A stretch of DNA of 64,000 nucleotides from an uncultured Phycisphaerae bacterium (GTDB lineage: Bacteria > Planctomycetota > Phycisphaerae > UBA1845 > Fen-1342). The position numbers were made by a program, and so were the translations under genes. The stretch spans positions 62,001-126,000 of the forward strand of contig CALGJV010000012.1 of assembly GCA_937928595.1 (NCBI GenBank), read 5' to 3'. This document shows, one piece after another, positions 4,723 through 16,689 of the stretch (position 1 is its first letter; the number at the start of each line of letters is the position of its first letter). The notes under the pieces are model-generated. The model was not told the DNA's origin. It was given only the letters and a program-made list of their open reading frames with translations, and searched no databases.

Positions 4723-5979
4723 ATGACGACCGCCCCGCGCGGCATGCGGCTGCACATCGGCCTGTTCGGCCGCCGGAACGTCGGCAAGAGCTCGCTGCTC
4801 AACGCGCTGACCCGGCAGGACGTGTCGATCGTCTCGCCCACCGCCGGCACGACAACCGACCCGGTCGAGAAGCCGATGGAGCTGCTGCCGATCGGGCCGG
4901 TGCTGTTCATTGACACCGCGGGCATCGACGACGCGGGCGCGCTCGGCACGCAGCGGGTCGAGCGGACACGGCGCGTGTTCGACCGCGTGGATGTCGCGGT
5001 GATCGTCGCCGCGGGCGGCGCGGGGGGCGGCTGGGACGCGTTCGAGGACGGACTTCTGGCGGAGTTTCAGCAGCGCCGCGTCCCGACGCTGGTCGTATTC
5101 AACAAGATCGACCTGGCGCCGCCGCCGGCTGCGGTGCGTGCCCGGCTGCTCGAGCAGGGGGTGCGGACGGTGCAGACGGTGGCCAGCCGGGGGAACGGCG
5201 TGGGGGAGGTGCGGGCGGCGCTGGTGCGCCTCGCGCCGGAGGACTTCATCAACACGCCCGCGATCGTCGGCGACCTCGTGCCGCCGGGAGAGCTGATCGT
5301 GCTGGTCGTGCCGATCGACAAGGAGGCGCCGAAGGGCCGGCTGATTCTCCCGCAGGTGCAGACCATCCGCGACCTGCTGGACAACGACGCGTACTGCTTG
5401 GTCGTGAAGGAGCGCGAGCTGCGTGATGCACTGGCCCGCCTGACCCGCCCGCCGGCGCTGGTTGTGACCGACTCGCAGGCGTTCCTGAAGGTGGCGGCCG
5501 ACACGCCGCCCGAGGTGCCGCTGACGTCGTTTTCGATTCTCTTCGCGCGCTTCAAGGGGGATCTGGTCGAGCTGGTCCGGGGCGCGACGGCGATCGACTG
5601 CCTGCGGCCGGGCGACCGGGTGCTGGTGGCCGAAGCCTGCTCGCACCACCCGATCGGCGAGGACATCGGCCGCGTGAAGATTCCGCGCTGGTTGACGCAG
5701 TATGTGGGCGGGGCGCTGGAGTTCACGACGATGTCCGGGCACGACTTTCCGCCGGACCTGGGGTCGTACCGGCTGGTGGTGCATTGCGGGGCGTGCGTGC
5801 AGAACCGGCGGGAGATGCTGACACGGATCCTGCGGTGCCGGGCGGCGGGCGTGCCGATCACGAACTACGGGCTGACGATCGCGTACTCGCTGGGGATCTT
5901 CGAGCGGGCGCTGACGCCGTTTCCGGCCGCGTTGGCGGCGTATCGGGAGCGGAACCGCGGGATGCCGCACTCCCTGTGA
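4723..5979 (+). CDS. hydF: [FeFe]-hydrogenase H-cluster maturation GTPase HydF
   Basis: HydF is the scaffold GTPase that carries the diiron subcluster and delivers it to apo-HydA. The 418-residue protein has an N-terminal G domain (GRRNVGKS P-loop at 16-23, G3 DTAG at 64-67, NKID at 127-130), a dimerisation region, and a C-terminal cluster domain. The [4Fe-4S] ligands are visible: Cys306 in EACSHHPIGED and Cys355/Cys358 in HCGAC. The start is the ATG with AGGGA five bases upstream. A TACACT hexamer at 4621-4626 may be its -10 box. The partner radical-SAM maturases HydE and HydG are not in the window. It lies directly upstream of the hydrogenase cluster, separated by a 263-base leader. Confidence 0.96.
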   Translation: MTTAPRGMRLHIGLFGRRNVGKSSLLNALTRQDVSIVSPTAGTTTDPVEKPMELLPIGPVLFIDTAGIDDAGALGTQRVERTRRVFDRVDVAVIVAAGGAGGGWDAFEDGLLAEFQQRRVPTLVVFNKIDLAPPPAAVRARLLEQGVRTVQTVASRGNGVGEVRAALVRLAPEDFINTPAIVGDLVPPGELIVLVVPIDKEAPKGRLILPQVQTIRDLLDNDAYCLVVKERELRDALARLTRPPALVVTDSQAFLKVAADTPPEVPLTSFSILFARFKGDLVELVRGATAIDCLRPGDRVLVAEACSHHPIGEDIGRVKIPRWLTQYVGGALEFTTMSGHDFPPDLGSYRLVVHCGACVQNRREMLTRILRCRAAGVPITNYGLTIAYSLGIFERALTPFPAALAAYRERNRGMPHSL

Positions 5980-6242: not shown

Positions 6243-6596
6243 ATGACGCTCGCTGAACTAGCCGCTCGGATCGGTGCCCGCGTGTACACGCCGGGCGGCG
6301 GCGCCGCGGTTGACGTCGGCCGCGTCTGGGCCGGCGATCGCATCAGCGACCTGCTCAACGAGGCCGTCGATAACGTGTTGCTGGTCAGCAACCTGGCCAG
6401 CACGCACCTCATCCGTGTGGCCGAACTCATGGACGTCCCGGGCATCTGCCTCGTCGCCGGACGGGAGCCGGATGCCGACATGCTCTCGGCGGCGCGGGCC
6501 CACGGGACGCTGCTGATGTCGTCGCCCTACGGGCTGTTCGAGACCTGCGGGCGGCTCTACCAGTGCCTGTCGGCGGAGGCGCCGACCGTCCGATGA
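6243..6596 (+). CDS. DRTGG-domain protein, first gene of the hydrogenase cluster
   Basis: A small soluble protein of 117 aa. It matches the DRTGG-type fold seen as short proteins upstream of trimeric [FeFe]-hydrogenase genes in anaerobes: N-terminal MTLAELAARIGARVY, a core GDRISDLL near 31-38, then VLLVSNLAS and VPGICLVAGREPD. The biochemical role of the family is unknown; related domains occur next to CBS domains and in phosphotransacetylases, so ligand sensing is plausible. A second, related copy is encoded at 8170. The stop codon overlaps the start of the ATPase/hydrogenase-like fusion (ATGA), so translation is coupled. Here the region aligned to SDLLSDV of the second copy is SDLLNEA. Confidence 0.75.
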   Translation: MTLAELAARIGARVYTPGGGAAVDVGRVWAGDRISDLLNEAVDNVLLVSNLASTHLIRVAELMDVPGICLVAGREPDADMLSAARAHGTLLMSSPYGLFETCGRLYQCLSAEAPTVR

Positions 6597-8173
6597 CCAC
6601 CGTCGTGTACCAGATCGAGGGGGGCGACTTCGAGCACGGCGGCGAGGCGTCGCGCCGGCTCAAGGAGCAGCTCAAGCGGCTGGGGGCCGACCCGGCGGTT
6701 GTGCGGCGCGCGATGATCGCGGCCTACGAGGCCGAGATGAACGTGGTGATTCATGCCGAGCGCGGCGAGCTGCGCGCGTCGCTGCAAAACGGACAACTCG
6801 ATATTGAAGTGTCCGACACGGGCCCCGGGATTCCCGACATCGCCGCGGCCCTGCGGGAGGGCTTCTCCACCGCCTCCGCCCGCGCCCGCGAGCTGGGCTT
6901 CGGCGCCGGCATGGGCCTGCCCAACATCCGCCGCAACAGCGACGAGTTCGCCATCGAGTCCACCGTCGGGCAGGGCACTCGCGTTCGGTTCAGCATTCGC
7001 CTGCGGCCGCAGACGCTCTACGGCACCGGCCGCCACGGCCTGACCATCGAGGCCGACCACTGCCGACGCGCGCTGCGCTGCGTGCATGCCTGCCCGACGC
7101 ACGCGGTGCGCGTGCTGGGGCGGCGGCCGGAAATTCTGGACTATCTGTGCATCGACTGCACCGCCTGCATCGCCGTTTGTCCGACCGGCACACTGACGAC
7201 GCGCGGCACGCGTGCGACGCTGCCGGTCGGTGAGGAGGCCGTCGTAGTCGTGCCGGCCGCGCTGCTGGTGCAGTTCGGCAGCGGCATCGCGCCGGCGCAA
7301 GTCCGCGCTGCGCTGGCCGCACTGCTGGGCGGCGGGGCGGCGGCCGACGCCCGCGTGTGGGTCCTCGAAGCGTGGGAGGCGGCTCTGCGGGCCGGAGTGC
7401 GGCGCTACGCCGAAACCGCGGCGGCTCTGCCCGTGATTTCGCCGGCCTGCCCGGCCGTGGTGAACCTGATCGAGACGCGCTACCCGGCGCTCATTCCGCA
7501 CGTGGCGCCGCTGGCGCCGGCTGTCGACGCGGTGCGCGCCGCGCTCGCCGGACAGCGGGCCGTGTTCGTCGTGACGTGCCCCAGCCAGCGTACGGCGTTG
7601 CTGGGCGACGCCGCGGCCGGCCCGCCGCCGGTGGACGTGCTGCTGCCCGCCGCGGTGCAGGCTGCGCTGGCACCGCATCTCCACGCCGACTCCGGGCAGC
7701 TCGCCGTCAGTGCCACGGCTCCGCCGCCGCCGGACGCGGACCTGCTGCGCGTGACCGGCCTGCCGCACGTGCTGCACCTGTTCGACGAGATCGAGGGTCG
7801 CCGCGTGCGCGACGTGCGCGTCGTGGAGCCGTGGGCCTGTGCGGAGGGCTGCTTCGGCTCGCCGCTGCTGCGCGAGGAGCCCTGTCTCGCGCGGCACCGC
7901 TGGGAGACCGCTCCGCTGCCGGCCGACGGAGCCGCGCGGGCCGTGCCGCGCGGGCGGCCGCTGGCGCCGCGGCCGGGGCTCCGGCTGGACACGGACATGG
8001 GCAAGGCGATTCAGAAGCTCGCCCGGATCGATACGTTGCGGCGCGAGCTGCCCGGGGCCGACTGCGGCGAGTGCGGCGCACCGACGTGCGCGGCGCTGGC
8101 CGAGGACATCGTGCTGGGCCGGGCCGCGGCGGGCGCGTGTGTGCGGCAGCGGTCGCAGGAGAAGGCACCATGA
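6593..8173 (+). CDS. GHKL ATPase fused to ferredoxin and sensor-like [FeFe]-hydrogenase domain
   Basis: A 526-residue fusion. Residues 1-140 are a GHKL/RsbW-like ATPase (N-box around EMNVVIHA at 48-55, DTGPGI 75-80, GAGMGL 104-109). Residues 148-200 are a 2[4Fe-4S] ferredoxin part: the second cluster is complete (CIDCTACIAVCP), but the first has only Cys157, Cys163 and Cys167, because Ala160 replaces a ligand. Residues 205-440 resemble a hydrogenase H-cluster domain: SPACP (283-287), TCP (Cys329) and CAEGC (Cys416/Cys420) align with motifs L1, L2 and L3. The usual proton-relay Cys of L1 is Ala, as described for sensory-type enzymes, while four potential cluster Cys remain. Residues 491-516 form a CxxCx4C...C iron-sulfur motif. 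These parts are usually separate genes. A signalling role in H2 or redox sensing is inferred. It overlaps both neighbours by four bases. Confidence 0.8.
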   Translation: MTTVVYQIEGGDFEHGGEASRRLKEQLKRLGADPAVVRRAMIAAYEAEMNVVIHAERGELRASLQNGQLDIEVSDTGPGIPDIAAALREGFSTASARARELGFGAGMGLPNIRRNSDEFAIESTVGQGTRVRFSIRLRPQTLYGTGRHGLTIEADHCRRALRCVHACPTHAVRVLGRRPEILDYLCIDCTACIAVCPTGTLTTRGTRATLPVGEEAVVVVPAALLVQFGSGIAPAQVRAALAALLGGGAAADARVWVLEAWEAALRAGVRRYAETAAALPVISPACPAVVNLIETRYPALIPHVAPLAPAVDAVRAALAGQRAVFVVTCPSQRTALLGDAAAGPPPVDVLLPAAVQAALAPHLHADSGQLAVSATAPPPPDADLLRVTGLPHVLHLFDEIEGRRVRDVRVVEPWACAEGCFGSPLLREEPCLARHRWETAPLPADGAARAVPRGRPLAPRPGLRLDTDMGKAIQKLARIDTLRRELPGADCGECGAPTCAALAEDIVLGRAAAGACVRQRSQEKAP

Positions 8174-8529
8174 CGCTTCCGGATCTGGCGGCCCGACTGG
8201 GCTGGCGGGCGCTGACGCCGCAGGTGCAACGGGCCGGTGACGTGACGGCGGGGTACGTGTCGGACCTGCTGAGCGACGTGCTGGCCCGTGCGCCCGCCGG
8301 CGGCGTGCTCGTGACGGTGCAGGTGCATCTGAACGTGATCGCGGTGGCCGTGCATGCCGAGCTGGCGGGCGTCGTGTTCGCGTTGGGGCGCGAGCCGGAG
8401 GAGCCGGTGCGGGCCAAGGCGGCGGAGGAAGGCATTGCGCTGTATGTCTCGGACGCGCCGGCGTTCGAGCTGGTCGGGCGGCTGTACGAGCTGGGCGTCC
8501 GCGGGACGCCCGCCCGCCCGCCGGTCTGA
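8170..8529 (+). CDS. Second DRTGG-domain protein
   Basis: A 119-residue paralogue of the protein at 6243: both start MTL(A/P)(E/D)LAAR(I/L)G. It has the typical GYVSDLLSDVLA (28-39), VTVQVHLNVIAVAV (48-61) and a final FELVGRLYELGV. The start ATG overlaps the stop of the fusion gene (ATGA). Known family context is the upstream part of trimeric [FeFe]-hydrogenase operons; the molecular function is not established. Two copies flanking the ATPase/sensor fusion suggest that they form a complex with it or with each other, which is inference. Confidence 0.78.
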   Translation: MTLPDLAARLGWRALTPQVQRAGDVTAGYVSDLLSDVLARAPAGGVLVTVQVHLNVIAVAVHAELAGVVFALGREPEEPVRAKAAEEGIALYVSDAPAFELVGRLYELGVRGTPARPPV

Positions 8530-8558: not shown

Positions 8559-9311
8559 GTGCAACTGTATCCGGCCGACCTGCACATCCACACGGCGCTG
8601 TCGCCGTGTGCGGCGGACGAGATGACGCCGCCGGCGATCGTGCGGACGGCCCGGAAGTGCGGATTGGCGATGATCGCGGTGTGTGACCACAACTCGGCCG
8701 ACAACGCGGCGGCGACGCAGGCCGCGGCTCGTGCGGCGGACCGCGCCGTGGCGGTGCTGGCCGGCATCGAGATCACGACCGCGGAGGAAGCCCACGTCGT
8801 CGGGCTCTTCCCGGCGCCGCAGGCGGCGGAGGCGGCGGCCGCCGAACTGACGGCCACGCTGCCGGCGGCCGACGATGCGTACTACGCCCGCTTCGGTCCG
8901 CAGCGGCGGCTGGACGCGGAAGGGCGCGAGCAGGGGACCGAACCGCACATGCTGGCGCTGGCGACGGGGTTCGACCTGGCGGCCGCGGTGTCGCTCGTGC
9001 ACCGGCACGGCGGGCTGGCGATTGCGGCCCACGTCAATCGCCCGTCGTTCAGCGTGCTGAGTCAGCTGGGCGTCTTCCCGGCCGACGCGGGCTTCGACGC
9101 GGTCGAGGTGTTTACGCCGGCGGGGGCGGAGGCGGACGCGGCGGTCGCCGCGGCGGCGGCGCACGGGCTGCCGGTGCTGGCCTCGTCGGACAGCCACGCG
9201 CTGGGGGACATCGGGCGGGCGCGCGCGGTGTTCACGCTGGCGGCGCCGACGTTCGAGGAGGTGGCTTTGGCGCTGCGGGGGACCGCCGGCCGGGGGGTGC
9301 GCTGTGCGTGA
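8559..9311 (+). CDS. PHP-domain phosphoesterase
   Basis: A 250-residue protein of the polymerase-and-histidinol-phosphatase fold, a trinuclear-metal phosphoesterase family. The metal residues are visible: DLHIHT (Asp7, His9, His11), CDHN (Asp43, His44), Glu71 in GIEITT, His79, His158 in AAHVN, and DSH (Asp211, His213). The start is GTG, supported by GGGAG nine bases upstream. PHP proteins of this size commonly accompany DRTGG and GHKL proteins in hydrogenase operons; the substrate is unknown. The 3' end overlaps the next gene by eight bases. Confidence 0.85.
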   Translation: MQLYPADLHIHTALSPCAADEMTPPAIVRTARKCGLAMIAVCDHNSADNAAATQAAARAADRAVAVLAGIEITTAEEAHVVGLFPAPQAAEAAAAELTATLPAADDAYYARFGPQRRLDAEGREQGTEPHMLALATGFDLAAAVSLVHRHGGLAIAAHVNRPSFSVLSQLGVFPADAGFDAVEVFTPAGAEADAAVAAAAAHGLPVLASSDSHALGDIGRARAVFTLAAPTFEEVALALRGTAGRGVRCA

Positions 9312-9834
9312 GCTGTCGCTGCACATCCTCGATCTGCTCGAGAACGCCCAGCGAGCCCGGGCGAGCGTGATCGCCGTCACGGTCGAGATCGACGAAGCGG
9401 CCGACCGCCTGCGGGTCGTCATCGAGGACAACGGCACGGGGCTCAAGGTGGCGCCTGAGGACGCGACCAACCCGTTCTACACGACCAAGGCCGGGAAGCG
9501 CACCGGGCTGGGACTGAGCCTGTTCCGCGCGGCGGCCGAGCAGACCGGCGGGGGGTTGACGATCGGCAAGTCGGGGCTGGGGCCGGTGGGCGTGCGGGTG
9601 GCGGTCGAGCTGGGGCTGTCGCACGTGGACCGCAGCCCGCTGGGCGACCTGGCCGGCACGCTCGCCGGCGTGGTGTGCACCAACCCCGAGATCGACTACG
9701 TGATCGCGGTCCGCTGCGGAATGCAGGAATGTCGCGTTCGGACGTCCGAGCTGGGCGCCGACGCGTTCCGTACCGCGCAGGCGGTACAGGAGCTGGTGGG
9801 CCGCGCGCTCGGCGCGGCCGCGGTGCCGCTGTAG
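9304..9834 (+). CDS. Stand-alone GHKL histidine-kinase-like ATPase
   Basis: A 176-residue protein with a histidine-kinase-type ATP-binding domain: N-box HILDLLENAQRA (7-18), DNGTGL (42-47), the FYTTKAGKRTGLGLSL lid and G2 box (58-73). There is no dimerisation/phosphoacceptor helix and no sensor domain, so it cannot act as a classical kinase alone. The C-terminal 75 residues (IDYVIAVRCGMQECRVRTSEL) are not recognised. The start is GTG, within the PHP gene. With the ATPase in the 6593 fusion, the cluster has two kinase-like ATPases and two receivers downstream, so a split phosphorelay or ATP-dependent switch is possible but unproven. Confidence 0.8.
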   Translation: MRELSLHILDLLENAQRARASVIAVTVEIDEAADRLRVVIEDNGTGLKVAPEDATNPFYTTKAGKRTGLGLSLFRAAAEQTGGGLTIGKSGLGPVGVRVAVELGLSHVDRSPLGDLAGTLAGVVCTNPEIDYVIAVRCGMQECRVRTSELGADAFRTAQAVQELVGRALGAAAVPL

Positions 9835-9892: not shown

Positions 9893-10462
9893 ATGCTTGA
9901 GGAAGGCAAGGTGACATGTGGGTGCGGCGAGGAAGTCTCCGAGGAGGAGCTGCTCGCCCGCCTGGACGCCGTCTTGGAGGAGTACCGCGCCAAGCCGGGG
10001 GCTCTGATCCCCGTGCTCCAGATCGCGCAGGGGCTGTTCGGCTACCTGCCGGAGGTGGCGCTGAAGAAGATCGCGCTCGGCCTGAACAAGTCGTACAGCG
10101 AAGTGGCCGGCGTCGTGAGCTTCTACTCCTTCTTCTCCACCCAGCCGCGCGGCAAGCACCTGATCCGCGTGTGCCTCGGCACGGCCTGTTACGTGCGGGG
10201 CGGCAAGCGCGTGCTGGACACGCTCAAGCAGAAGCTCGGCGTCGACGTGGGCGACACGACGCCCGACCGCACGTTCACGCTCGAGGTGGCCCGCTGCTTC
10301 GGCGCGTGCGGGCTGGCCCCGGCCATCATGATCGACGACGACGTCCACCACCGCGTCAAGCCGAACAAGATGGACCTGATCCTGGACAAGTACCGCGAGG
10401 AGCCGGCCGCACCCGACTCGGGCAACGGCCGCGGCGCCCGCGCCACAGCCCGGAGGACCTGA
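9893..10462 (+). CDS. hydC: Trimeric [FeFe]-hydrogenase gamma subunit HydC (NuoE-like)
   Basis: A 24-kDa NuoE-type thioredoxin-fold ferredoxin, 189 aa. The [2Fe-2S] ligands are Cys94 and Cys99 (CLGTAC) plus Cys135 and Cys139 (CFGAC). The helical N-terminal half (LIPVLQIAQGLFGYLP, then VAGVVSFYSFF) is typical of NuoE. An extra CGCG motif at residues 9-12 is not part of the known cluster. The start is the ATG with AGGAG upstream. In HydABC enzymes this subunit passes electrons between HydB and HydA. The next gene starts four bases after the stop. Confidence 0.93.
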   Translation: MLEEGKVTCGCGEEVSEEELLARLDAVLEEYRAKPGALIPVLQIAQGLFGYLPEVALKKIALGLNKSYSEVAGVVSFYSFFSTQPRGKHLIRVCLGTACYVRGGKRVLDTLKQKLGVDVGDTTPDRTFTLEVARCFGACGLAPAIMIDDDVHHRVKPNKMDLILDKYREEPAAPDSGNGRGARATARRT

Positions 10463-10465
10463 CCC

Positions 10466-10840
10466 ATGACCACCCGCAAGATCACGAGTCTCGCGGACCT
10501 GGCCGACGTTCAGGCCGACGCCCGCAAAGCGATCGACCTGCGCAGCGGCACCAAGGACCTGCGCATCACCGTCCACATGGGCACCTGCGGCATCGCCGCC
10601 GGGGCTCGCGACGTGCTCACGGCGCTCATGGCCGAGCTCGGCCGCGCCGGCACGACCAACGTCAGCCTCCAGCAGACCGGCTGCGCCGGCCTGTGCGACC
10701 AGGAGCCGATGCTCACGCTGACCGATCCCGGCGGCCGCAGCTTCCGCTACGGCCGGCTGACCAAGCACAAGGTGGGCGAGATCGTGCGGGACCACGTCCT
10801 GCGCGGCCAGCCCGTCAACGAGTACCTGATCAAGGCCTGA
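10466..10840 (+). CDS. Small thioredoxin-like [2Fe-2S] ferredoxin
   Basis: A 124-residue protein of the (2Fe-2S) ferredoxin group found in NADP-reducing and bifurcating hydrogenase operons. The core MGTCGIAAGARDVL (38-51) and TGCAGLCDQEP (71-81) carry Cys41, Cys73 and Cys77. Only three cysteines of a possible four are present, as I recall for this subfamily, so the cluster may have an unusual ligand or be absent. It lies between hydC and hydB and is presumably an accessory electron carrier or structural subunit. Confidence 0.82.
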   Translation: MTTRKITSLADLADVQADARKAIDLRSGTKDLRITVHMGTCGIAAGARDVLTALMAELGRAGTTNVSLQQTGCAGLCDQEPMLTLTDPGGRSFRYGRLTKHKVGEIVRDHVLRGQPVNEYLIKA

Positions 10841-10859: not shown

Positions 10860-13800
10860 ATGGATAACGTGCGAACTCACATTCTCGTGTGCACCGGCGG
10901 CGGCTGCATCGCCTCGGGCGCGCTGGAGGTCAGCGCCGCCCTGCGTGAGCAGCTCGAGCGCCACGGCCTGGCCAACGAGGTCCGGGTCATCGAGTCGGGC
11001 TGCCTGGGGCCGTGCGCCGTCGGGCCCGTCGCCGCGGTGTACCCCGACAACGTGTTCTATCAGGGCATCCGCCCGGACGACGCGGCCGACATCGTGGAAG
11101 AGCACCTGCTCAAGGGGCGCGTGGTCGAGCGGCTGGTCCATACGACCCCGGCCGGGCGCACGCTGCCCGGCCTCCAGGAGGTGCCGTTCTTCCAGAAGCA
11201 GGTCAAGATCGTGCTGCGCAACTGCGGCGTGATCGACCCACTCAAGATCGAGGAGTACATCGCGCGCGACGGCTACCGCGCCCTGGGCAAGGTCCTCACC
11301 TCCATGACCCCCGAGGAGGTCATTGCCGAGATGAAGGCGTCGGGGCTGCGGGGCCGCGGGGGCGCGGGCTTCCTCACCGGGCTGAAGTGGGAATTCACCC
11401 GCAAGGCGCCCGGCGACGTGAAGTACATCCTGTGCAACGGCGACGAGGGCGATCCCGGTGCGTTCATGGACCGCAGCGTGCTGGAGGGTGATCCGCACAG
11501 CGTGATCGAGGGCATGGCGATCGCGGCCTACGCGATCGGCGCGCAGCAGGGCTACGCCTACATCCGGGCGGAATATCCGCTGGCGGTCGAGCGTTTCAAC
11601 CACGCGCTGCGGCAGGCCCGCGAGTACGGCCTGCTGGGCCGCGACATCTTCGGCACGTCGTTCCAGTTCGACATCGAGGTCCGCATGGGTTCCGGCGCCT
11701 TCGTGTGCGGCGAGGAGACGGCCCTGATGACCTCGATCGAGGGGAACCGGGGCGAGCCGCGCCCGCGGCCGCCGTTCCCGGCCCAGAAGGGGCTGTGGGG
11801 CCGGCCGAGCTGCCTGAACAACGTCGAGACGTTCGCGAACGTGCCGCCGATCCTGCTTCAGGGGTCGAAGTGGTTCGCGTCGTACGGCACGGCCAAGAGC
11901 AAGGGCACGAAGGTCTTCGCGTTGGCCGGGGCGGTGAACAACACCGGCCTGGTCGAGGTGCCGATCGGCATGCCGCTGGGCGAGATCATCTACGACATCG
12001 GCGGCGGCGTGCCCAACGGCAAGAAGTTCAAGGCGGTGCAGCTCGGCGGCCCGTCGGGCGGGTGCATCCCGAAGGAGTACCTCAACGTCCCGGTCGACTA
12101 CGAGTCGCTCAGCGAGCTCGGCGCGATCATGGGCTCGGGCGGCATGATCGTGATGGACGAGGACACGTGCATGGTGGACGTGGCCCGCTTCTTCCTGGAT
12201 TTCTGCCAGGACGAGTCCTGCGGCAAGTGCCCGCCGTGCCGCGTCGGCACCAAGCGCATGCTCGAGATTGTCGAGCGCATCTGCGCCGGCGAGGGCCAGG
12301 AGGGCGATATCGAGAAGCTGCTGGAGCTGGGCCAGGTCGTCAAGGACGCCTCGCTGTGCGGCCTGGGCCAGACCGCGCCGAACCCGGTGCTCTCGACGAT
12401 TCGCTACTTCCGGCACGAGTACGAGGCCCACATCCGCGACAAGCACTGCGAGGCGGGCGTGTGCGCGGCGCTCGTGCGGGCGCCCTGCCAGAGCGCCTGC
12501 CCGGCCGGGGTCGACGTGCCCGGCTTCGTGTCGCTGATCGGCGAGAAACGCTACGCCGAGGCCCTGGCGCTGCACCGCGAGCGCAACCCGTTCGCATCGG
12601 TCTGCGCCCGCGTGTGCTTCCACACGTGCGAGGACAAGTGCCGCCGCAGCACGCTGGACGAGGCGGTCGCCATCCGCGGGCTCAAGCGCTTCATGACCGA
12701 GCAGGAAGTGACCGTTCAGCTGCCCGAGATCCGCGACAACGAGGCCAACGCCCGCCGCAAGATCGCGATCGTCGGAGCCGGCCCGGCCGGCCTCTCCTGT
12801 GCGTACTTCCTGGCGCGGCTGGGCTACCGGCCGCGCGTCTTCGAGGCCGAACCGCGCCCGGGCGGCATGCTCGTGCAGGCCATTCCGGCGTACCGGCTGC
12901 CGCGCGAGGAGCTGGCCCGCGAGGTCCGCATGATCGAGCGGCTCGGCGTCGACATTGAAACCAACATGCGGCTGGGCCGCGACTTCACGCTGGCCGGCCT
13001 GAAGCAGCAGGGCTACGACGCCGTCTTCCTCGGGATCGGCGCGCCGCTGGGCGCCAAGCTCGGCATTCCGGGCGAGGATGCCGAGGGCGTGACCGAGGCG
13101 CTGCGGTTCCTGCGCGAATACAACATCCGCGGCTCGGCGCCGATCGGCCAGAAGGTCGTCGTGATCGGCGGCGGCAACGCGGCCATCGACGCCGCCCGCA
13201 CGGCGCTGCGGCTCGGGGCCGAGTCGGTCTCGATCCTCTACCGCCGCACGCGGGCCGAGATGCCGGCGTACGCCGAGGAAGTGGACGAGGCCGAGCATGA
13301 GGGCGTCAAGCTCATGGTGCTGGTGGCCCCGGTGGAGGTCGTCACGCAGGGCGGCCACGTGAGCGGCGTGAAATGCCGGCACATGGTGCTGGGCGAGTTC
13401 GACCGCAGCGGCCGGCGCCGCCCGGTGAGCTCGTCCGACGGCGATTTCATCGTGCCCTGCGACCAGATCATCGCGGGCATCGGGCAGGCGCTCGACGCGC
13501 GCGAGCTGTGCGACGGCCTGCCGCTGGAGCTGAACAAGAACGGCTTCATCAAGGCCGACCCGGTGACGGGCCGGACGTCGGTGCCGTGGGTTTACGCGGG
13601 CGGCGACGCGGTCATGGGGCCGTGGTCGGTCGTGGGCGCGATCGCCGCGGGCGAGAAGGCCGCGGTCGGGATCGATGCGGCCCTGACCGGGGCCGAGCAC
13701 GCCTTCTGGCGGAAGGAGCGGCCCAACGACACCGCCTTCGACCCGGATGCCGACCCGGTGCAGTATCCGCGGGCGAAGATGCAGCTCATCCCGGTGAACA

Positions 13801-13919
13801 AGCGGCGGAACAACTTCCAGGAAGTCGAGCTGCCGTGGTCGGAAGCCGTAGCGCGGCGCGAGGCGAAGCGCTGCCTGCGGTGCGATTTCCGCCAGCCGTG
13901 TGAGCAGACGCAGGACTAG
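10860..13919 (+). CDS. hydB: HydB-type NuoF flavoprotein fused to a GltD/NfnB-like oxidoreductase
   Basis: A 1019-residue electron-input subunit. Residues 1-120: thioredoxin-like [2Fe-2S] domain (Cys11/16, Cys48/52). Residues 125-535: NuoF core with FMN site RGRGGAGFLTG (164-174), CNGDEGDPGAFMDR (192-205), and the [4Fe-4S] motif CGKCPPCR (Cys454/457/460) plus Cys500. From about 540 a GltD-like half follows: CQSACP, CARVCFHTCEDKC iron-sulfur ligands, FAD site GAGPAG (639-644), second Rossmann site GGGNAAID (770-777) and the YRRTRAEMPA motif that in GltD/NfnB contacts NADPH. HydB in characterised trimers normally ends with ferredoxin motifs after the NuoF core; here those are replaced by the second flavoprotein. 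The fusion could connect H2, NAD(H), ferredoxin and NADP(H), which is inference from the domains. The start is the ATG 20 bases after the previous stop. Confidence 0.92.
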   Translation: MDNVRTHILVCTGGGCIASGALEVSAALREQLERHGLANEVRVIESGCLGPCAVGPVAAVYPDNVFYQGIRPDDAADIVEEHLLKGRVVERLVHTTPAGRTLPGLQEVPFFQKQVKIVLRNCGVIDPLKIEEYIARDGYRALGKVLTSMTPEEVIAEMKASGLRGRGGAGFLTGLKWEFTRKAPGDVKYILCNGDEGDPGAFMDRSVLEGDPHSVIEGMAIAAYAIGAQQGYAYIRAEYPLAVERFNHALRQAREYGLLGRDIFGTSFQFDIEVRMGSGAFVCGEETALMTSIEGNRGEPRPRPPFPAQKGLWGRPSCLNNVETFANVPPILLQGSKWFASYGTAKSKGTKVFALAGAVNNTGLVEVPIGMPLGEIIYDIGGGVPNGKKFKAVQLGGPSGGCIPKEYLNVPVDYESLSELGAIMGSGGMIVMDEDTCMVDVARFFLDFCQDESCGKCPPCRVGTKRMLEIVERICAGEGQEGDIEKLLELGQVVKDASLCGLGQTAPNPVLSTIRYFRHEYEAHIRDKHCEAGVCAALVRAPCQSACPAGVDVPGFVSLIGEKRYAEALALHRERNPFASVCARVCFHTCEDKCRRSTLDEAVAIRGLKRFMTEQEVTVQLPEIRDNEANARRKIAIVGAGPAGLSCAYFLARLGYRPRVFEAEPRPGGMLVQAIPAYRLPREELAREVRMIERLGVDIETNMRLGRDFTLAGLKQQGYDAVFLGIGAPLGAKLGIPGEDAEGVTEALRFLREYNIRGSAPIGQKVVVIGGGNAAIDAARTALRLGAESVSILYRRTRAEMPAYAEEVDEAEHEGVKLMVLVAPVEVVTQGGHVSGVKCRHMVLGEFDRSGRRRPVSSSDGDFIVPCDQIIAGIGQALDARELCDGLPLELNKNGFIKADPVTGRTSVPWVYAGGDAVMGPWSVVGAIAAGEKAAVGIDAALTGAEHAFWRKERPNDTAFDPDADPVQYPRAKMQLIPVNKRRNNFQEVELPWSEAVARREAKRCLRCDFRQPCEQTQD

Positions 13920-13989: not shown

Positions 13990-15807
13990 ATGCCGAAACT
14001 GACGATCGACAACCTCCCTGTGGAGGTCCCCGACGGGGCCAGCGTGATCGACGCCGCCGAGCAGGCGGGCATCCGCATCCCGTCGCTGTGCTACCTGAAG
14101 AACGTGCAGGCGATCGGCGCCTGCCGCGTGTGCGTCGTCGAGATCGAGGGCGCCCGCGGCCTCATCGCCGCGTGCAGCCAGCCGGCGACCGAGGGCATGA
14201 AGGTCAGGACCAACACCCGTCGCGTCCGCGAGGCCCGACGGACGGTCGTCGAGCTACTGCTCTCCGAGCACGACGGCGATTGCCAGGTCTGCGACCGCAA
14301 CGACGACTGCGAGCTCCAGGCGCTCGCCCGCGAGCTGGGCATCAAGGAGGTCCGGTACGCCGGCGGCAAGGCCCGCCGGTATCAGGACATGACGACGCCG
14401 GCCCTGGTGCGCGACACCGCCAAGTGCGTCGCCTGCCGCCGCTGCGTGACGGTCTGCAACCAGACGCAGGGCGTGGCGGCGCTCTGGCCGCAGAACCGCG
14501 GCTTCAACACCGTCATCGGACCGGCCTTCTGCCAGAACCTGGACGACGTGGTGTGTGTCCAGTGCGGGCAGTGCGGGGCCGTCTGCCCGGTCGGCGCGAT
14601 CACTGAGCGCGACCACATCGGCGACGTCTGGGCCGCACTGGACGATCCGTCCATGCACGTGATCGTGCAGACCGCGCCGGCCATCCGCGCTGCGCTGGGC
14701 GAGTGCTTCGGCTATCCCCCGGGCACGCTCGTGACCGGCAAGATGGCGACGGCGCTGCGCCGCCTGGGCTTCGCGGCCGTGTTCGACACCAACTTCACCG
14801 CCGACCTGACCATCATCGAGGAGGGCACCGAGCTGCTCATGCGGCTCAAGCAGGCCCTCGCGGGCTCGAGCGGCGGCCGCAAGAAGGGCGGCAACGGGCA
14901 CGGGCACGACCAGGCCTACGGCCCGGTCCCGATGTTCACGAGCTGCTCGCCCGGGTGGATCAAGTTCATGGAGCACTTCTACCCGGACCTGACGCCCAAC
15001 CTCTCGACCTGCAAGAGCCCGCAGCAGATGTTCGGCGCGGTCGCCAAGACCTACTACGCCGGGAAGATCGGCAAGCGGGCCGAGGACATCTATGTCGTGT
15101 CGGTCATGCCGTGCACGGCCAAGAAGTACGAGTGCCAGCGGCCCGAGATGACCGGCAGCGGCGTGCGGGACGTGGACGCGGTGCTGACGACGCGCGAGCT
15201 GGCCCGCATGATCAAGCAGGCCGGCATCGACTTCGCCAAGCTGCCGGACAGCGCCATGGACGCCCCGCTGGGCCTGTCCACCGGCGCGGCCGACATCTTC
15301 GCGAACACGGGCGGCGTCATGGAGGCCGCGTTGCGGACGGCGTGGGAGCTGGTCACCGGTAGGCCGCTGCCGTTCGAGAACCTGCACGTGGCGCCGGTCG
15401 CGGGGCTCGAGGGCATCAAGGAGGCCTCGGCGAAGATTACCGGCGCCGTGCCGGCCTGGTCGTTCCTCGAGGGCGTCACGCTGAAGGTGGCGGTGGCGCA
15501 CGGGCTGGGCAACGCCCGCAAGCTGATCGAGCGCATCAAGGCCGGCCAGGCGGATTACCACTTCATCGAGGTGATGACCTGCCCCGGCGGGTGCGTCGGC
15601 GGCGGCGGCCAGCCGCGGCTGACGACCGACGACGCGCGGCGGGCCCGCATTGCGGCGATCTACCGCGAGGACGAGGGCAAGCCGCTGCGCAAGTCGCACG
15701 AGAACCCCGCCGTGCAACAGCTCTACCGGGAGTTCCTGGGCGAACCGCTGGGCGAGAAGTCGCACCAGCTTCTGCACACGAAGTACGTCGCACGGGCCAA
15801 GGTTTAG
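13990..15807 (+). CDS. hydA: [FeFe]-hydrogenase catalytic subunit HydA
   Basis: A 605-residue modular hydrogenase. N-terminal NuoG-like [2Fe-2S] domain (Cys34, 45, 48, 62), His-ligated [4Fe-4S] (His94, Cys98, 101, 107), two ferredoxin clusters (Cys146/149/152/156 and Cys189/192/195/199), then the H-cluster domain from about 222. L2 is MPCTAKKYE (373-381) and L3 is EVMTCPGGCVGGGG (527-540). L1 reads TSCSPGW (317-323) instead of the textbook TSCCPxW. A Gly/Lys/His-rich insert lies at 293-311. The longer C-terminal [2Fe-2S] domain of some HydA proteins is absent. The domain order and the hydC/hydB neighbours place it with trimeric, probably electron-bifurcating enzymes that couple H2 to ferredoxin and NAD(H). 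No signal peptide is seen, so it is cytoplasmic. Confidence 0.95.
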   Translation: MPKLTIDNLPVEVPDGASVIDAAEQAGIRIPSLCYLKNVQAIGACRVCVVEIEGARGLIAACSQPATEGMKVRTNTRRVREARRTVVELLLSEHDGDCQVCDRNDDCELQALARELGIKEVRYAGGKARRYQDMTTPALVRDTAKCVACRRCVTVCNQTQGVAALWPQNRGFNTVIGPAFCQNLDDVVCVQCGQCGAVCPVGAITERDHIGDVWAALDDPSMHVIVQTAPAIRAALGECFGYPPGTLVTGKMATALRRLGFAAVFDTNFTADLTIIEEGTELLMRLKQALAGSSGGRKKGGNGHGHDQAYGPVPMFTSCSPGWIKFMEHFYPDLTPNLSTCKSPQQMFGAVAKTYYAGKIGKRAEDIYVVSVMPCTAKKYECQRPEMTGSGVRDVDAVLTTRELARMIKQAGIDFAKLPDSAMDAPLGLSTGAADIFANTGGVMEAALRTAWELVTGRPLPFENLHVAPVAGLEGIKEASAKITGAVPAWSFLEGVTLKVAVAHGLGNARKLIERIKAGQADYHFIEVMTCPGGCVGGGGQPRLTTDDARRARIAAIYREDEGKPLRKSHENPAVQQLYREFLGEPLGEKSHQLLHTKYVARAKV

Positions 15808-15880: not shown

Positions 15881-16300
15881 ATGCCCGAGCCCGCCCCGCT
15901 CATCCTCCTCGTCGACGACGATGTCGATTTCCTCGACATCAACCGGCAGGTGCTCGAGCCGCGCGGCTACCGCGTCGTCGCGGTGACCGACCCGGTCGCC
16001 GCCTGGGAGCGCATTCAGCAGGAGCCGCCCGCGCTAGTCATCACCGACCTCATGATGAGCGCGCTCGACTCCGGGTTCTCGCTCACGCGCCGGCTGCGCG
16101 AGGACCCGCGCTTCGGCGCACTCCCCATCATCCTCGTGACCGCCGTCAGCAGTTCCCTCGGCCTCGACTTCCGCCCGCGGACGCCCGCCGACCTGGCCGC
16201 GCTCGGCGTCGACGCCTTCTTCGACAAGCCCGTCCGGCCGCAGGCCCTGCTCGACAAGGTCGCCGAGCTGCTGGCCCGCGGCCGCCCGGAGACGCCCTGA
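15881..16300 (+). CDS. Receiver-only response regulator
   Basis: A 139-residue single CheY-like receiver domain with no output domain. The acidic pocket is Asp12-Asp14 (LLVDDD), the phosphoacceptor is Asp56 (VITDLMM), the switch Thr is in LVTAVSS, and the Lys is in FFDKPV. An insertion between beta4 and alpha4 (SSSLGLDFRPRTPADLAALG) is shared in form with the next protein. The stop overlaps the next start (ATGA). It is co-directional with hydA after a strong hairpin. The phosphodonor is unknown; the kinase-like ATPases upstream are candidates. Confidence 0.88.
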   Translation: MPEPAPLILLVDDDVDFLDINRQVLEPRGYRVVAVTDPVAAWERIQQEPPALVITDLMMSALDSGFSLTRRLREDPRFGALPIILVTAVSSSLGLDFRPRTPADLAALGVDAFFDKPVRPQALLDKVAELLARGRPETP

Positions 16301-16689
16301 TGCCCCACACGATCCTCGTCGTGGATGACGACCCGGACACGCTGAGCCGGATGCGCCGGCACCTCACGCAATGGGGCTTCGACGTCCGGACCGCGGACAG
16401 CCTGAAGCAGGCCGACGCCGCCCTGCGCGAGCAGCGCCCCGATCTCGCCATCGTCGACCTGATGCTCGAAGACGTGGACAGCGGCTTCACGCTCTGCCAC
16501 CGCATCAAGCGGCAGGATCCCGCCATCCCCGTGATTCTCGTCACGGCCGTCACGCATTACACAAACCTCCAGTTCGACGCGCTCGGCCGCGAGGAGGCAG
16601 CCTGGATCAAGGCCGACGCGATCCTTCAGAAGCCGGTGCTGTTCGAGACGCTGGCCGCGCGCATTCGCCAGTTGTTGCCGGCCGATTGA
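16300..16689 (+). CDS. Second receiver-only response regulator
   Basis: A 129-residue CheY-like receiver, paralogous to the preceding protein (both have D(L)M(M/L)..DSGF after the phosphorylation site). The acidic pocket is VVDDD (Asp9-11), the phosphoacceptor Asp53 (IVDLML), the Thr in LVTAVTHY and the Lys in LQKPV. There is no DNA-binding or enzymatic output domain, so it acts through protein-protein contact. The start lies within the stop of the first regulator. A short inverted repeat (GGCGCA 16704-16709 / TGCGCC 16715-16720) follows the stop and may mark the end of the cluster. Confidence 0.88.
   Translation: MPHTILVVDDDPDTLSRMRRHLTQWGFDVRTADSLKQADAALREQRPDLAIVDLMLEDVDSGFTLCHRIKRQDPAIPVILVTAVTHYTNLQFDALGREEAAWIKADAILQKPVLFETLAARIRQLLPAD

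Follow-up and report, generated by a model that had tools for sequence, protein, structure and literature searches.

A single-gene fusion of a SpoIIAB-like ATPase with a degenerate [FeFe]-hydrogenase domain, a putative iron-sulfur redox sensor encoded next to a bifurcating hydrogenase

What can be sensed by a protein in which an ATPase and a hydrogenase-like domain are joined, and to which partner would it report? This question is raised by a gene preceding the hydABC genes of an uncultured Phycisphaerae bacterium, located within the window, the stretch of 64,000 nucleotides analyzed here. An earlier note on this DNA had described the gene as a fusion of an RsbW-like ATPase (residues 1-140) with a hydrogenase-like domain and had proposed an H-cluster- or FeS-binding sensor. 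For group D (M2e) putative sensory hydrogenases, the signal output is an open question (PMC8163306, PMC13104023). The features of the locus are listed in Table 1.

Table 1. Domains of the fused gene and neighboring genes in the window.
Feature	Position	Strand	Basis or remark
Fused gene: SpoIIAB-like ATPase, two-cluster ferredoxin, degenerate [FeFe]-hydrogenase H-domain, C-terminal FeS domain	6593..8173	+	ORF, Pfam, AF2
GHKL ATPase, residues 1-140	6593..7012	+	intact N-box E46/N50, DxGPG (75-79), GFGAGMGLPN (102-111)
2x[4Fe-4S] ferredoxin module, residues 150-203	7040..7201	+	Ala160 at second Cys position of first motif
H-domain, residues 215-440	7235..7912	+	Cys codons 7448, 7577, 7838, 7850 at H-cluster ligand positions
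Hypervariable Ala/Pro/Gly-rich linker, residues 362-383	7676..7741	+	stands where the [2Fe]-covering segment would be
C-terminal FeS domain, residues 486-517	8048..8143	+	Cx2Cx4Cx16C (C491, C494, C499, C516)
DRa, DRTGG-fold protein	6243..6596	+	ATGA-coupled to fused gene
DRb, second DRTGG-like protein	8170..8529	+	ATGA-coupled
PHP-domain protein	8559..9311	+	part of conserved operon
Second ATPase of operon, histidine-kinase-type	9304..9834	+	fused to NuoE in some relatives
HydC (NuoE-like)	9893..10462	+	
[2Fe-2S] thioredoxin-like ferredoxin	10466..10840	+	
HydB	10860..13919	+	C-terminal GltD-like NAD(P)H/FAD domain
HydA	13990..15807	+	group A6 bifurcating [FeFe]-hydrogenase
HydF maturase	4723..5979	+	

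The unbroken reading frame encodes 526 amino acids. Both halves named in the earlier note were recovered by Pfam, with matches to HATPase_c and HATPase_c_2 in residues 1-140 (E 8e-11 and 2e-10) and to part of Fe_hyd_lg_C in residues 223-307 (E 1e-7). Two modules absent from that description were found in addition, a two-cluster ferredoxin (Fer4_10, residues 151-200) and the C-terminal FeS domain (PF04060, residues 486-517, E 1e-10), whose cysteine motif is of the type described in PMC8163306. The protein was modeled by AlphaFold2 with 59 natural sequences (pLDDT 93), and comparison of the predicted model with solved structures agreed with both assignments: residues 1-139 matched SpoIIAB (1til) with a VIA Z of 19.4 and rmsd 1.7, and residues 144-461 matched [FeFe]-hydrogenases with Z 18-25 (CbA5H 25.0, CpI up to 22.5). 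For the hydrogenase half alone, a sequence search of the PDB returned weak matches and the structure search gave the decisive ones. The FeS domain is the last domain of the chain, which stops at residue 526 and lacks the C-terminal PAS/histidine kinase of group C; the protein is separated from group C as a clade of its own, and a Pfam scan detected no PAS domain in it. ATGA overlaps couple the gene to both neighbors (6593-6596 and 8170-8173), and DRa, the fused protein and DRb are therefore probably produced together.

Among the scanned GTDB genomes and 120 relatives, the fusion was present in one frame in 37 loci, the window included, representing about 33 distinct sequences or genomes. These belong to Phycisphaerae and other Planctomycetota, Hydrogenedentota, Actinomycetota/Thermoleophilia, Myxococcota and one spirochaete, and the frame is open in every case. 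An assembly error joining two ORFs is ruled out, as the same one-frame fusion recurs in 36 other loci. The two parts had also been said to be usually separate genes upstream of HydABC, and this split arrangement, with the ATPase gene immediately before the hydrogenase-like gene, was found in 53 loci. Moorella and Tepidanaerobacter are cultured bacteria that have the split system.

In the hydrogenase tree, which was calculated without TamHydS and without two HydA-like proteins that have no H-domain (L052/L078), the fused proteins form a fully supported clade (100/100) with split group D as its sister (74/87); this pair is set apart from groups A and C (98/95). The ATPase tree is concordant (97). 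A single fusion followed by spread across phyla would fit these trees; an ancestral fusion that was later split could account for them as well. By its sequence, the fused lineage is placed as the sister of group D (TamHydS-type) putative sensory hydrogenases and is not a proven hydrogenase. The kinship to sensory hydrogenases claimed earlier agrees with the tree, and the sensory context of the genes is supported too. Their order (DRa, ATPase, hydrogenase-like, DRb, PHP, second ATPase, NuoE, 2Fe-2S, HydB, HydA) is shared by most fused and many split loci, with a variable arrangement of PHP through 2Fe-2S in Bacillota. In several split group D operons (L052, L054, L072, L078, L068, L074, L093) the HydA slot is occupied by a Fer2/Fer4 protein, in which no hydrogenase domain was found within the available part of each locus. 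Further fusions of modules were observed, namely DRTGG-ATPase, hydrogenase-like-DRTGG and second ATPase-NuoE (L055, L086, L093, L095, L098, L100; L050, L071, L084, L096; L024, L028, L056).

The four cysteines proposed as H-cluster ligands, C286, C329, C416 and C420, occupy the ligand positions and show no substitution in any fused or split relative whose sequence covers them. Around the diiron site, most positions of the fused clade are altered relative to split group D. Using a motif alignment for the positions of C299, M353 and K358 of CpI, the alanine noted earlier at the proton-relay position was located at the C299 position (Ala285), which is Ala or Ser in split group D and mostly Val (24/38) in the fused proteins. 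Lys358, which hydrogen-bonds a cyanide ligand, is kept in 50 of 53 split proteins and is Gln in 35 of 38 fused ones. The M353 position carries Val or Ala in 36/38 fused proteins (Val327 in the window) versus Ser or Thr in 51/53 split ones, the M497 position is aromatic (Tyr, Trp or Phe) in all 37 fused proteins covering it, and the second Gly after C503 is replaced by Ser, Ala or Thr in the fused clade. All 38 fused rows lack the segment that lies over the diiron site between motifs L2 and L3 and have the variable linker in its place; the few matches of the segment pattern in these rows fall elsewhere in the H-domain. The same segment contains F417 and FGATGGVMEA in CpI, and it is LFPLSRGMLQAA in group C and GWGRAGGEN in split group D, where it carries the TamHydS proton relay E252. 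In nearly all of the 53 split proteins a segment of the GWxxxGG(E/Q) type, with its W, is still present, as are the corresponding segments in groups A and C. F417/Y223 and E252 have been reported adjacent to the ADT ligand (PMC10055695, PMC10407848), mutation of E252 in TamHydS abolished nearly all H2 oxidation (PMC10407848), and in CpI M497L proper integration of the [2Fe] was reported to be lacking (PMC10055695). When pairs of equal ATPase identity are compared, fused pairs show about 5-25 points lower conservation of the H-domain than split pairs (for example 40.1 vs 51.5% at an ATPase identity of 55-60) and higher conservation of the C-terminal FeS domain (62.9 vs 56.1%).

The loss of the covering segment and of the surrounding Lys and Met throughout the fused clade makes a sensor of redox state with a [4Fe-4S] cluster only likelier than an H2 sensor, and from the sequence we consider it fairly probable. 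The simplest reading would be that the [2Fe] subsite was lost and the cubane kept. In the window protein, Trp414 and Val327 could fill the diiron cavity. Of the reading in the earlier note, the cysteines at the four ligand positions, the hydrogenase fold and the sensory context find support, and the H-cluster itself is called into question. A comparable case is given by the eukaryotic FeS assembly proteins of the Nar1/NARFL type, hydrogenase homologs with an H-domain fold that probably carries FeS clusters but no diiron subsite; these are not known to have an ATPase fusion.

The main competing explanation is a true H2 sensor, in which a complete but strongly tuned H-cluster is still bound and H2 binding drives the attached ATPase. 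The invariant ligand cysteines, the position next to HydABC and the retention of the TamHydS E289 equivalent, a residue of the proposed proton path (E412, 34/38), speak for it, and the group D relative TamHydS is an active, though slow, hydrogenase (PMC8163306). Maturases are present as well, HydF in the window, HydE and HydG on contig C10 of the same genome, and HydG above cut-off in 26 of 33 fused genomes; since HydA depends on them as well, their presence leaves the question undecided. TamHydS and TmHydS tolerate loss of C299, M353 and M497, and together with the strictly kept cysteines and the distribution of HydG this leaves room for a tuned H-cluster. Against it stand the missing covering segment with E252 in every member, Gln in place of Lys358, the aromatic residue at M497 and Val at the C299 and M353 positions, all the more as a separate group C HydS-kinase of the same genome has these features intact. 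We therefore regard an H2 sensor as rather unlikely.

Besides the putative cubane, both accessory FeS modules known from group D, the N-terminal two-cluster domain and the C-terminal Cx2Cx4Cx16C domain, are present in the [4Fe-4S]-only sensor favored here. With Ala160 in place of the second Cys of the first ferredoxin motif, one of the eight ferredoxin cysteines is missing, and a [3Fe-4S] cluster may be present at one of the accessory sites. At this residue (7070-7072) the fused clade has Cys in 27 of 38 sequences, Ser in eight and Ala, as in the window, in three. The TamHydS residues R30, E392 and D393, which were proposed to bridge the N- and C-terminal clusters, seem to be kept as R173, E504 and D505 when positions are matched by motif. 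H2 alters the secondary structure of TamHydS without reducing its C-terminal cluster (PMC13104023), which by analogy makes conformational coupling via the N-terminal clusters plausible in the fused protein.

The fused protein shares with group D, the group of TamHydS, the four ligand cysteines, the C-terminal motif, the two-cluster domain, the lack of PAS and the placement in the tree, and differs in the fused ATPase, the lost covering segment with E252, Gln for Lys358, Val or Ala instead of Ser or Thr at M353 and the aromatic residue at M497. With the PAS/histidine kinase-linked group C (TmHydS) it has in common a sensory hydrogenase domain and C-terminal FeS domain coupled to an ATPase; group C, however, keeps the Lys and the covering segment and ends in HisKA/HATPase, whereas the ATPase of the fused protein is SpoIIAB-like and N-terminal.

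The ATPase itself appears intact, with invariant N, G1 and G2 boxes (E46, N50, DxGPG, GFGAGMG). In fold and in these boxes it resembles the GHKL serine kinases and anti-sigma factors SpoIIAB, RsbW and RsbT, and a switch of their type could be envisaged, in which the FeS domains gate the binding or phosphorylation of a sigma factor or STAS antagonist by the ATPase. SpoIIAB is indeed the nearest solved fold, with Glu46 and Asn50 at the same positions; unlike SpoIIAB, the ATPase is joined to FeS modules. Its score of 43.8 bits against the SpoIIAB equivalog TIGR01925 is far below the cut-off of 135 bits, neither a sigma factor nor a STAS gene was recognized in the conserved module, and the proteins to which it is fused or next to which it is encoded are DRTGG proteins and Rex, so that an anti-sigma-type switch appears improbable. 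A decayed or structural protein without signaling, such as a remnant subunit of the hydrogenase complex, would agree with the faster evolution of the H-domain compared with split relatives but is most improbable, as ATPase motifs, FeS cysteines and C-terminal domain are kept across phyla in frames that are open in all 37 loci.

As for the output of the [4Fe-4S]-only sensor, the neighboring genes point to DRTGG proteins and Rex. The top Foldseek matches of DRa are the DRTGG-fold structures 2ioj and 3l2b (E 2e-5 and 1.5e-4), its Pfam DRTGG score by itself being under the cut-off (12.8 vs 25.2). Each of the 16 actinobacterial loci encodes a Rex repressor with DRa as its C-terminal domain; Rex was identified by PF06971 and PF02629 in two loci and by similarity to one of those in the remainder. 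Gene fusions of DRTGG-ATPase and HYD-DRTGG occur in Bacillota, rex lies immediately 5' of the DRTGG-ATPase gene in Tepidanaerobacter and relatives, and in one genome (G027) rex is followed by group C HydS, DRa and the fusion. Gene order and these fusions are the basis on which the DRTGG domain is the putative target of the ATPase. Within DRa, Ser35 is invariant and a candidate for the modified residue. Sites resembling the Rex operator (TTGTGAA-N4-TTCACAA, at most two mismatches) were counted upstream of the operon start (20 in 28.7 kb) and elsewhere (15 in 838 kb), an upstream enrichment of about 39-fold with a binomial p of about 5e-21 that is overstated, since the loci are related and not independent. 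A phycisphaeral fused locus (L025) is among those with such sites. The pattern search of the window gave no site near its operon. The genome has a single rex, placed on contig C10 with a one-mismatch operator and next to another HydCBA set and a group C HydS-kinase, so that Rex as output in this organism is inferred from relatives. Control of hydrogenase-related genes by Rex is known from other organisms, hydG of Caldicellulosiruptor being one case (PMC6391272). In the open-access literature nothing relevant on a Rex-DRTGG or group D-Rex link was found, which is weak evidence of absence.

Taken together, the fused protein would be a cytoplasmic iron-sulfur redox sensor with putative sensory [FeFe]-hydrogenases of group D as its ancestors. 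Decayed at the diiron site, the H-domain would probably keep just the cubane on C286/C329/C416/C420 beside the ferredoxin-type and C-terminal clusters, and these could be reduced or oxidized by ferredoxin or the electron pool of HydABC. Their redox state might alter the activity or partner binding of the ATPase, which would phosphorylate the translationally coupled DRTGG proteins or engage them in partner switching, and these may pass the state on to Rex-dependent transcription of the bifurcating hydrogenase operon. It is probably redox state, not hydrogen itself, that is reported to the genes making the real hydrogenase. Both the absence of [2Fe] and the direction of signaling are deduced, and we hold the complete chain, from group D-derived sensor to Rex-dependent hydABC transcription, with moderate confidence. 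More tentatively, it may be described as a bacterial 'pseudo-hydrogenase' that gave up the diiron site and kept the cubane, its redox-gated ATPase or kinase acting through DRTGG and Rex on a catalytic hydrogenase.

The natural fusion points to the neighboring ATPase as the direct partner of group D putative sensory hydrogenases, and the Rex-DRTGG fusions together with the operator-like sites name a testable output; Rex/DRTGG as the likely output is a new proposal. The fused clade may furthermore be seen as a natural experiment on the question of which functions of a hydrogenase can be given up while its regulatory role is kept.

Several observations concern the catalytic hydrogenases of this genome. 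HydB with its GltD-like domain comprises 1019 amino acids, a length similar to that of HydB in Moorella and actinobacterial relatives, and this domain may enable the bifurcating hydrogenase to use NADPH. HydA contains the motif TSCSPGW with Ser at the CpI C300 position, as does HydA1 of Acetobacterium woodii. Immediately 3' of hydA two receiver-only response regulators are encoded (15881-16300 and 16300-16689), and a relative of the first also directly follows hydA in three other genomes (G013, G010, G026). The second hydrogenase cluster (L111:2988-10596, corresponding to about 102-110 kb of contig C10 of genome G000) consists of rex, HydCBA, the group C HydS-histidine kinase with intact motifs (L111:8076-10178) and a receiver-domain protein, followed by HydE and HydG; the one-mismatch operator of its rex is located at L111:2982-2999.
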